The position numbers and the translations under genes were made by a program. This document shows positions 61,494-63,909 of a stretch of 64,000 bases of DNA, in pieces. Numbering within the stretch: position 1 is the first letter of the stretch; the number at the start of each line of letters is the position of its first letter. The stretch comes from Actinoplanes cyaneus (lineage in GTDB: Bacteria; Actinomycetota; Actinomycetes; Mycobacteriales; Micromonosporaceae), in NCBI RefSeq assembly GCF_016862095.1, contig NZ_BOMH01000001.1:124001-188000 (forward strand). Direction: 5' to 3'. The notes beneath the pieces are model-generated. The model did not search any database and was not told the origin of the DNA. It was given only the letters and a program-made list of their open reading frames with translations.

Positions 61494-61769
61494 TCACGAG
61501 TCGGCAGGGCGCCAGGGACGCTCGGCATCGGTGGGGCGGGCCCCCGCGAGGACCCCGATGGCGTAGGCCGGCCGCTCCCCCGGCACCGGCCCGAGGTATT
61601 CGTGCCCGGTCAGGTGGCACCAGGCGGGCAGGTCCAGCGGCGCCGCGGGGTCGGTCGCGATCAGGTGCACGACCGAGCCCGGCGGCAGCGTCGCGATCAG
61701 TTTGCGCAGCTCGATCAGCAGCACCACGCAGCGCCGATCACCGCCGTCGAGCACAACCGGAGCGTTCAT
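61494..61769 (-). CDS. TusA-like sulfurtransferase-fold protein with altered active site
   Basis: 91 residues. The TusA fold is suggested by DGGDRRCVVLLIELRKLIAT, the VVHLIATDPAAPLDLPAWCH beta strand/helix and HEYLG. The usual CPxP motif is replaced by CVVL (Cys14), so sulfur transfer could be changed or lost, although the Cys is kept. ATG 61769 has GGGGG directly before it. Confidence 0.75.
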   Translation of the reverse strand: MNAPVVLDGGDRRCVVLLIELRKLIATLPPGSVVHLIATDPAAPLDLPAWCHLTGHEYLGPVPGERPAYAIGVLAGARPTDAERPWRPADS

Positions 61770-61932
61770 CCCCCGATCTTCTCCCGCGTCGCTCCGCTCA
61801 CGACCAGGAGTGCCGCGACACGTGCCCGAGGACACGCTCGAAGCCCGGGCCGTGACGGGGGCCGGCCGGTCCATCGAGGAGGGGGTGTGGCCCGGGCCGC
61901 GAATGCGGGGCACGCGAGCCCGGGCTCACGAT

Positions 61933-62412
61933 CTACGGGCGGTAGTTCTTGCCGAGCGGTGCGCCCGGGATCGGCTTGCCGATCAGGGCCACCGGCACGA
62001 AGAACAGAATCTGGGCGATGACCAGCGTCAACGTCCAGAGCGCCTTCTCGTCGTAGTGCGCGGCGGCCCGCTGGTAGAGCTCGTCGGGGACGCGTTCGCC
62101 GGCCGGGTTCGCCGTGCACACGGCCTCGGCCAGTTCCAGGGCGACCCGTTCGGCTTCCTGGAAGTACGGCGCGTCCCGCCACGACGCCACGGCGGTGATC
62201 CGTTCCTCGGTCTCACCGGCCTTGCGCAGAATCCCGCTCTGCCGGACGGTGTGGTAAGTGCTGCCGACGATCTGCCCGACCCGCAGGTGCACGAGTCCGA
62301 TCGTGGTCGCCGGGATGCTGTCGTTGTGCAGCGCGCTGGTCAGCGAGGCCGCCCAGCCGCCCAGTTCCGGGAAGAACCGCGCGGGATCGGGGAGGCGTGA
62401 GGTGATGTCCAT
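61933..62412 (-). CDS. Carboxymuconolactone-decarboxylase-like protein lacking AhpD cysteines
   Basis: 159 residues. The CMD/AhpD-like core is visible (HLRVGQIVGSTYHTVRQSG, then WRDAPYFQEAERVALELAEA). The active-site pattern CxxCxxxH is replaced by Ser51-Thr-Tyr-His54 and Gln58. Such CMD genes are the usual partners of ECF41 sigma factors, as here. The start is eight bases after an ECF41-like promoter, implying a leaderless mRNA. Confidence 0.88.
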   Translation of the reverse strand: MDITSRLPDPARFFPELGGWAASLTSALHNDSIPATTIGLVHLRVGQIVGSTYHTVRQSGILRKAGETEERITAVASWRDAPYFQEAERVALELAEAVCTANPAGERVPDELYQRAAAHYDEKALWTLTLVIAQILFFVPVALIGKPIPGAPLGKNYRP

Positions 62413-62420
62413 GCCGGCTT

Positions 62421-62448
62421 CGACGAGGTGGCCGCACGGAATGTCAGG
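62421..62448 (-). promoter_or_regulatory. ECF41-type promoter of the CMD-like gene
   Basis: On the minus strand CCTGACATTC (62439-62448), 11 bases, then CTCGTCG (62421-62427). Spacing and sequence match the plus-strand promoter of the sigma gene. Confidence 0.75.
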
Positions 62449-62449
62449 C

Positions 62450-62477
62450 CCTCACATTCGCGCCTGCCGTCTCGTCG
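62450..62477 (+). promoter_or_regulatory. ECF41-type autoregulatory promoter of the sigma gene
   Basis: CCTCACATTC (62450-62459), 11 bases, then CTCGTCG (62471-62477). The CCTCACA-N16-CGTC core resembles the reported ECF41 consensus TGTCACA-N16-CGTC in five of seven -35 positions and all of the -10. ATG follows seven bases after. Confidence 0.75.
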
Positions 62478-62484
62478 GAGTGTC

Positions 62485-63339
62485 ATGAGGACTCCGGAGG
62501 ACGAGCGCCGCCAGCTGATCAACGTCGCGTATCGCCTGCTCGGCTCGCTCGCCGACGCCGAGGATGTGGTCCAGGAGACGTACGCGCGATGGTTTGCCCT
62601 CTCTCCTGCGCAGCAGGCGGAGATCGACGTGCCGGGCGCGTGGCTGACCAAGGTCGCGAGCCGGATCTGCCTCGATCACCTGCGGTCGGCCCGGGTGCGG
62701 CGCGAACGGTACGTCGGCGAGTGGATCCCGGAGCCGGTCCCGTCGCTGCCGGGCGACGACCCGGCCGACCGGATCACCCTGGACGAGTCGGTGAGCATGG
62801 CGTTCCTGGTGGTCCTGGACGCGATGACGCCTGCCGAGCGGGTCGCGTTCGTCCTGCACGACGTGTTTCGTTACTCGTTCGCCGAGGTGGCCGAGGTCGC
62901 CGGTCGCACCCCGGCGGCGTGCCGTCAGCTGGCGTCCTCCGCGCGCCGCCGGATCGCGACGTCCGCCGCGCCGGCGCCGCCGGTCTCCGAGCAGGCCCGC
63001 GTGGTCCGCGACTTCAAGCGGGCCTGGGAGTCGAAGGACATCGCCGCGCTGGTCGGGCTGCTCGACCCGGACGCGCACCTGATCGCCGACGGCGGGGGCG
63101 TGGTCAGCGCGGCGCCCCGCCCGATCGTGGGCGGCGCCGAGGTCGCCCGGTACGCGGTGGCCCTCGCCGAGCGCGCGCCGGGCCTTCAACTGGTGGAGCG
63201 CACCGTGAACGGGCAACCGGGCCTGGTCGTGCAATGGGGCGGCGTCACCACCGGGGTGGTCGCCTTCGAGGTCGCCGGCGCGCGGGTCAGCCGGATGTGG
63301 GCGGTGCGCAACCCGGAGAAGCTGCGCCCCTGGCTCTGA
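62485..63339 (+). CDS. sigJ: ECF41 (SigJ-type) RNA polymerase sigma factor
   Basis: 284 residues. Region 2 (about 8-75: YRLLGSLADAEDVVQETYAR), linker motif WIPEP at 80-84 (ECF41 signature WLPEP), region 4 (about 108-160) and a C-terminal SnoaL-like domain (about 175-284) with DGGG at 203-206 and NPEKL near the end (signature NPDKL). These three motifs define ECF41, whose C-terminal extension modulates activity without a separate anti-sigma factor. Divergent from its probable CMD target. Confidence 0.94.
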   Translation: MRTPEDERRQLINVAYRLLGSLADAEDVVQETYARWFALSPAQQAEIDVPGAWLTKVASRICLDHLRSARVRRERYVGEWIPEPVPSLPGDDPADRITLDESVSMAFLVVLDAMTPAERVAFVLHDVFRYSFAEVAEVAGRTPAACRQLASSARRRIATSAAPAPPVSEQARVVRDFKRAWESKDIAALVGLLDPDAHLIADGGGVVSAAPRPIVGGAEVARYAVALAERAPGLQLVERTVNGQPGLVVQWGGVTTGVVAFEVAGARVSRMWAVRNPEKLRPWL

Positions 63340-63397
63340 TGCCACCGTGATGCCACAGGGTTGCGCGTGGCATCATAGTGATGCCATAATGGCGTCA
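63337..63397 (+). promoter_or_regulatory. Array of TGATGCCA sites before the RHH gene
   Basis: TGATGCCA occurs at 63337-63344, 63348-63355 and 63379-63386, inverted TGGCATCA at 63368-63375, and a variant TGGCGTCA at 63390-63397. The copies start 10-20 bases apart. CATAAT (63384-63389) is a possible -10 box seven bases before ATG 63397. The first site includes the sigJ stop codon. Confidence 0.75.
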
Positions 63398-63909
63398 TGG
63401 AACTGCGCCCCTACATCGACGCCGTGCGTCACGAGCTCGCGCTCGCGGCAGCGGCCGGCGGCGACGACGCCCGGGAGCTCGCCGAGCGGCTGACCGCGCC
63501 GCTCGAGTCGGCGATCCGGCTCGCCCTGCTCGACGCCCTCTCCGAAGCCGCCACGGAGATCACCCGCGATCTGGCACCGGGCTCGGTCGACCTGCGCCTG
63601 CGCAACCGCGAGCCCTCGTTCGTGGTGGCACCGGCCCCTGCCGAGTCGTGGGCCCCTCAGGAATCCGCGCCGCCGGAGCCCGTGCCCGCGGCGCCCGCCC
63701 CCGGTGAGGACGAAGCGACGGTCCGGATCAGTCTGCGCCTCCCGGAGCACCTCAAGGGCCGGGTCGAGCAGGCCGCCGCCAAGGCCGGCGTCTCGATCAA
63801 CACCTGGCTGATCCGGGCCGCGTCCGCCGCGGCCGACGGCGACAGCCCCCGTTCCGCGACCACGAGCGCGGCCAGCAGTGGTCAGCGCTACAGCGGCTGG
63901 GTCCGCTGA
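63397..63909 (+). CDS. Ribbon-helix-helix protein (HicB/Arc-like C-terminus)
   Basis: 170 residues. A helical N-terminal region (about 1-60), a Pro/Ala-rich linker (about 75-105), then the RHH domain (about 107-145): VRISLRLPEHLKGRVEQAAA followed by GVSINTWLIRAASA, as in HicB antitoxin C-terminal domains. No toxin gene is adjacent; the next gene encodes a DUF4097-like protein. The site array upstream suggests autoregulation. Confidence 0.88.
   Translation: MELRPYIDAVRHELALAAAAGGDDARELAERLTAPLESAIRLALLDALSEAATEITRDLAPGSVDLRLRNREPSFVVAPAPAESWAPQESAPPEPVPAAPAPGEDEATVRISLRLPEHLKGRVEQAAAKAGVSINTWLIRAASAAADGDSPRSATTSAASSGQRYSGWVR

Follow-up and report, generated by a model that had tools for sequence, protein, structure and literature searches.

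Within the 64-kb stretch of Actinoplanes cyaneus DNA analysed here (the window), a sigJ-like sigma factor gene and a carboxymuconolactone decarboxylase (CMD) family gene point away from each other, and each is preceded by the same promoter-like motif. This arrangement raises the question of whether a single ECF41 sigma factor may read its own gene and the neighbouring gene from one shared site, as a first-pass annotation of the sequence had proposed. The features under discussion are the following (window coordinates):

62485–63339, plus strand: sigJ-like ECF41 sigma factor gene, 284 aa, with sigma region 2, region 4_2 and a weak SnoaL_2 C-terminal domain (profile matches)
61933–62412, minus strand: CMD family gene, 159 aa, with SxxH for CxxC (PF02627, E 2.7e-9; motif GQIVGSTYHTV)
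62450–62456, plus strand: -35 element CCTCACA of the sigJ promoter, kept exactly in Actinoplanes liguriensis (L075)
62473–62476, plus strand: -10 element CGTC of the sigJ promoter, 16 bp past the -35 heptamer
62442–62448, minus strand: -35 element CCTGACA of the CMD promoter (sequence reading)
62422–62425, minus strand: -10 element CGTC of the CMD promoter, 16 bp past the -35 heptamer
62439–62459, no strand: 21-bp near-palindrome GAATGTCAGG-C-CCTCACATTC (9/10 pairs) from the two abutting -35 regions (sequence reading)
62485, plus strand: predicted transcription start at the A of the sigJ ATG, leaderless (8 nt from CGTC to ATG; start-codon peak at 8–11 nt in relatives)
62412, minus strand: predicted transcription start at the A of the CMD ATG, leaderless (9 nt from CGTC to ATG; as in short-gap-class partner genes)

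Two abutting promoters separate sigJ from the CMD gene

The motif CCTSACATTC-N11-CTCGTCG, which the first-pass annotation had described on each strand with the start codon 7–8 bases further on, is present at 62421–62448 (minus strand) and 62450–62477 (plus strand). Towards sigJ, CCTCACATTC (62450–62459) is followed by 11 bases and CTCGTCG (62471–62477); towards the CMD gene, CCTGACATTC (62448–62439) is likewise followed by 11 bases and CTCGTCG (62427–62421), so that both sites read CCTSACA-N16-CGTC when counted from the -35 heptamer. The sigJ ATG (62485) lies 7 bases past CTCGTCG and 8 nt past CGTC, and the CMD ATG (62412, minus strand) 8 bases past CTCGTCG and 9 nt past CGTC. The designation of the two promoters as identical holds for the motif repeated on both strands, but not for one -35 base (C/G) or for the 11-base spacers, which differ.

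The near-palindrome attributed to the abutting -35 regions was borne out, with the single base 62449 between arms in which GAATGTCAGG pairs with CCTCACATTC at nine of ten positions, and with a gap of 5 bp between the -35 cores (TSACA). Rather than one shared site, the locus has a pair of promoters that abut, with a dyad made up of their -35 elements. A bidirectional promoter with a shared -10 element is ruled out, as the two CGTC elements (62425 and 62473) are 47 bp apart and it is the -35 elements that abut.

The window holds two exact matches to the motif, and five with up to three mismatches as compared to a mean of 0.56 and a maximum of 3 in 100 shuffles. A chance origin of the twin motif is ruled out by these shuffles, by the genome-wide control and by control motifs in the loci of 80 relatives (see below). 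As to its assignment to ECF41, the 16-bp spacing and the -10 element fit the published TGTCACA-n16-CGTC, but the -35 element begins with CC and not TG; among sigma-side promoters of relatives with a gap of at least 4, CC precedes TSACA in 101/152 and TG in 22/152.

The two genes and their neighbours

The identification of the plus-strand gene as sigJ was upheld by its match to NCBIfam PRK09636 SigJ (307 bits, cut-off 271), and PF04542 and PF08281 both score above their cut-offs. Its SnoaL_2 match (E 1.8e-4, 22.5 bits) stays under the Pfam cut-off of 27, but the alignment to SigJ 5xe7, the closest solved relative by sequence (E 3.7e-48), covers residues 7–280, and we take the SnoaL-like C-terminal extension to be present. 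A COE-type neighbour is provided by the divergent CMD gene, whose family assignment is corroborated by PF02627, and no anti-sigma gene adjoins: the ORF downstream of sigJ (63397–63909, plus strand) has only a weak HicB/ribbon-helix-helix match at its C-terminus. Downstream of the CMD gene, on the same strand, lies an ORF with a TusA-like domain (61494–61913, minus strand).

All ECF41-linked CMDs are said to contain CxxC in the accessible part of the study by Wecke et al. (PMC3426412). The CMD of this locus carries STYH at that position, and among 45 distinct CMD matches in the fetched loci, its own included, STYH occurs in 23, CxxC in 12 and other residues in 7, while 3 are unreadable. Loci with an STYH CMD partner include L075, L099 and L103. 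The 23/45 count points to a cysteine-less CMD subfamily beside these sigma factors, and as read from their sequences these STYH proteins contradict the statement that CxxC is universal.

The motif elsewhere in the genome and a predicted regulon

We searched the whole genome (10.36 Mb, 183 contigs) with the motif that the first-pass annotation had put forward for such a scan, using the reversed motif as control. Exact matches are confined to the two sites at the sigJ/CMD locus (control 0). With up to two mismatches 15 matches were found versus 3 for the control, the twelve 2-mismatch matches among them not being distinguished from chance. The sole 1-mismatch site, CCTCACATCC-N11-CTCGTCG on contig C37 (G000:C37:30321-30348 = L033:1501-1528), is distant from sigJ and lies upstream of a gene for a membrane protein with a DoxX_2 domain; this gene has a leader and, ahead of its GTG, a ribosome-binding-like GAGGAG. 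The site gains support because DoxX_2 recurs in relatives, where 7 of 130 divergent partner ORFs picked mechanically carry it. The DoxX-like gene is hence a likely regulon member, and the predicted regulon comprises sigJ, the CMD gene and the DoxX-like gene.

Between one of the 2-mismatch sites (G000:C40:119803) and the start of the AIRS-domain gene downstream there are over 200 nt. At the five other ECF41-like genes of the genome (35–46% identity), no CCTSACA promoter was found within 1.5 kb on either side; these paralogous factors could also read the sigJ/CMD site. Two overlapping convergent motifs were seen at the sigma paralogue L206.

Double promoters recur in related loci

To place the locus among its relatives, we searched overlapping samples of family, class and order genomes with the pattern GACG-N16-TGTSA-N{0,30}-TSACA-N16-CGTC, which is present in 49/354, 49/394 and 34/397 genomes, respectively; the reversed control pattern occurs in 2/354 family and 1/394 class genomes. 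Gaps of 31–61 were found in 9/354 family and 17/394 class genomes (control 1 in each), and of ten such places that were fetched, six are sigma-adjacent (L247–L251, L254) and four are not. Not all pattern matches are ECF41 loci. At L156, L157, L067, L062, L234, L218, L219 and L221, double divergent motifs of ECF41 type have no sigma gene within 420 nt (tblastn), possibly as unlinked targets or beside undetected sigma genes.

A second set, the best 80 of 549 loci, was picked by protein similarity alone. Upstream of the sigma gene, 56/80 of these carry both the inward and the outward promoter, as compared to 1/80 for the reversed motif upstream and 0/80 for the motif inside the gene (both controls on the plus strand only). 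The remaining 24/80 lack one or both promoters by the strict pattern (inward only 11, outward only 6, neither 7). Among the 56 double-promoter loci of these best 80, the gap between the cores is 14–17 in 41, 3–5 in 9 and another value in 6.

Start codons lie close to the -10 elements in the short-gap class

After examining 229 loci and setting aside 30 entries without a sigma gene, we retained 157 distinct sigma-adjacent double promoters, the sigJ/CMD locus included, and recorded on each side the distance from CGTC to an ATG followed by an open frame of at least 200 codons (sigma side) or at least 100 codons (partner side). On the sigma side, this distance is 40–43 nt in 71/157 loci and 8–11 nt in 19/157, with none at 12–15 and thinner occupation elsewhere (4–7 in 10, 28–31 in 13), and most relatives are accordingly not leaderless on this side. 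On the partner side, 25/157 fall at 8–11 nt and none at 12–15, the others being spread broadly over 32–59.

When sorted by the gap between the -35 cores, a partner ATG 7–10 nt past the -10 element is found in 15/17 loci of the 3–5 class, 5/98 of the 13–18 class and 7/42 of the others, suggesting leaderless mRNAs for the partners of the 3–5 class. The comparison of the 3–5 and 13–18 classes gives a Fisher p of 8e-13 with phylogeny ignored; since starred branches supply only 2 independent pairs, a phylogenetic pair test of gap class against leaderless partner is unable to reach significance. Five loci of the 3–5 class, that of sigJ/CMD among them, have an ATG 7–10 nt past the -10 element on both sides.

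That both mRNAs are leaderless, as the first-pass annotation had supposed, appears likely from the ATGs at 8 and 9 nt past CGTC and from the separate 8–11 nt peak on both sides in relatives. For mapped ECF41 starts, the accessible part of Wecke et al. (PMC3426412) gives leaders of 22/23 nt, and its Table 5 lists 31/32 for the same genes; if this column counts from the -10 element, transcription would start about 9 nt past it, and such a start would hit the A of both ATGs at the sigJ/CMD locus.

Spacing between the -35 cores and exchange of partners

The gaps between TSACA cores are unevenly distributed over the 157 loci: 3–5 in 17, 7 in 3, 9–11 in 8, 13–18 in 98, 19–22 in 3, 26–28 in 9, 38–39 in 12 (ten from one clade) and 7 single values within 45–93. 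A separate ECF41 clade (L216, L223–L226, L247–L249, L251, L254) has a gap fixed at 38–39 bp, and in most of its members an inner GTGACG-like element is present as a third. In L136, L080 and L147 extra TSACA/TGTSA repeats lie between the promoters (L147 has four copies of TCTCACAGAGCG, for instance), which looks like tandem duplication of -35 elements.

Collapsing clades on the sigma tree, many branches of which are weak, left 85 events, and the 34 off the main mode (gap up to 61) were used for a phase test. These events are in phase with gap 15 beyond random positions, with a mean cosine of 0.30 at period 10.5 (p=0.0025) and 0.34 at period 11 (p=0.0016), the best period being 11.0 (p=0.009 after scan correction); when restricted to gaps of at most 30, the test gives p=0.0071 at 10.5 and 0.0024 at 11. 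The helical period of relaxed B-DNA is usually given as 10.5, and the observed period of about 11 is larger. Against phasing, gaps of 7–11 and 19–22 do occur and a five-member clade at 10 sits half a turn off. Overall, helical phasing of the gaps in ECF41 double promoters is suggestive.

The divergent partners are mostly non-homologous (130 ORFs, chosen mechanically and some perhaps in a wrong frame: FMN_red 19, SnoaL_2 18, CMD 16, DoxX_2 7, MMPL 6, others). On a tree of 132 sigma proteins, the partner label changes 45 times and the four-class gap label 25 times, the two counts coming from different row sets; the 3–5 class accounts for 10 changes, at least 3 of them forced by starred branches. 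With fewer changes of gap class than of partner, the gap seems to be tied to the sigma-promoter module rather more than to the partner.

The steps in the distribution may reflect a packing limit, in which intergenic shortening would abut the -35 elements and remove the leaders, the steps being a pile-up at this limit plus an inherited ancestral gap of 15 bp. This account, which concerns the spacing and leaves the gene assignment untouched, we place somewhat below an even chance. A gap of 3–5 is indeed the smallest without large -35 overlap, the leaderless partners in 15/17 short-gap loci are what general compaction would produce, and the weakness of many tree branches also speaks for it. However, the third cluster at 26–28 turns up as nine events after collapsing of the tree (with L066 and L188 among these rows being tree sisters), and the excess of partner changes over gap-class changes noted above likewise argues against a mere packing limit. 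We propose, tentatively and as the rather unlikely option, a spacing rule with gaps near 4, 15, 27 (and 38) bp, differing by roughly one helical turn, that would arise from two SigJ holoenzymes or molecules touching each other or being fixed relative to a DNA face; the pair would then work as a single unit, cooperative or mutually exclusive, whose spacing persists through exchanges of the partner. Under this rule, the sigJ/CMD locus would be, with the same reserve, the shortest, doubly leaderless form.

A probable compact divergent ECF41 locus

Taken together, these results suggest a model in which the locus is a divergent ECF41 locus in compact form, and we hold this reading to be quite probable. 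RNA polymerase carrying SigJ would recognise CCTSACA-N16-CGTC in either direction and make two transcripts from the abutting -35 elements, both probably leaderless and beginning at the A of the ATG; transcription of sigJ would constitute positive autoregulation and that of the CMD gene the output. With no more than 73 bp between the predicted starts, competition between the two initiation complexes is probable, and a single docking region would then divide polymerase between the sigma factor and its target.

The sigJ-side promoter might instead be the only one driven by SigJ; the CMD-side motif would then be a copy that is weak or in decay, and the CMD gene would be transcribed mainly from a different promoter. 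In A. liguriensis (L075), whose sigma factor is 88% identical, nothing has changed in the sigJ promoter elements or in the 7 bases that lead to the ATG, and on the CMD side CGTC is kept and the -35 core has one change (CCTGACG). This drifted element implies that the two promoters may not be equally constrained, and it weakens the case for their equal importance; together with the 11 of the best 80 of 549 loci that have only the inward motif by the strict pattern, it favours the one-sided arrangement. We nevertheless consider the latter improbable, as the CMD motif of the locus is exact and lies 9 nt from its ATG, both motifs are found in 56 of the same best 80 loci with the outward motif alone in 6, and COE genes are the only detectable ECF41 targets in the accessible part of the published survey (PMC3426412).

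It is very improbable that a dimeric repressor or activator uses the dyad GAATGTCAGG-C-CCTCACATTC as an operator overlapping both -35 elements, with the sigma motif incidental, despite the near-perfect 10-bp arms and the partly conserved interval between the -35 elements of the gap-15 class (majority GGCGACGCGCCGACC), since the half-site separation varies (3–5, 13–18, 26–28 and others) beyond what a rigid dimer tolerates, which rules out an operator of that kind, each half retains its own N16-CGTC, and in a scan of four neighbouring proteins the ORF at 63397 alone resembles a DNA-binding regulator, and weakly so.

Returning to the compact ECF41 locus, its new parts are the doubly leaderless form and the possible spacing rule, neither of which we found described in the open-access literature; in the accessible part of Wecke et al. 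(PMC3426412), we found no discussion of divergent-promoter spacing. If true, a helical phase kept across many bacteria and exchanged partners would point to physical coupling of two divergently bound sigma-RNA polymerase complexes. At minimum, the analysis gives this actinomycete an exactly defined ECF41 motif, together with a predicted regulon of three genes, two of which are predicted to be leaderless.

Comparison with known systems

As far as the accessible text of Wecke et al. 2012 (PMC3426412) goes, the divergent arrangement accounts for 55 of 373 ECF41 loci; the sigma gene carries a promoter in 36 of these and the COE gene in 41. Divergent ECF41/COE pairs with promoters on both genes are already published there (Table 4), so that the kind of locus is known. 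The present one resembles those loci in its sigma gene beside a COE gene, the lack of an anti-sigma gene, the 16-bp spacer and the CGTC -10 element. It differs from them in its -35 element, CCTSACA instead of TGTCACA, in the predicted lack of a leader on both transcripts, the two mapped ones having leaders of 22/23 nt, and in a CMD without the CxxC said to be universal in linked CMDs.

Judging from the accessible part of the work on E. coli bidirectional promoters (PMC12825309), these share with our locus pseudo-symmetric DNA able to load polymerase both ways, one binding event blocking the other, and mutual exclusion of the two complexes is by analogy expected here, though the geometry differs. 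The E. coli promoters share a -10 element and have starts mostly 18 bp apart (10 and 23 bp are also common), whereas here the -35 elements abut, 73 bp separate the predicted starts and an alternative sigma factor would be involved.

A further parallel is the HrpL/hrpJ region of Pseudomonas syringae, in which, according to the accessible part of that report (PMC5263251), an ECF sigma gene is likewise divergent from its own target and ECF-RNA polymerase at the target promoter affects the sigma gene. There, however, hrpL is sigma-54 dependent and repressed, whereas the sigJ/CMD locus has the same ECF41 motif in both directions.
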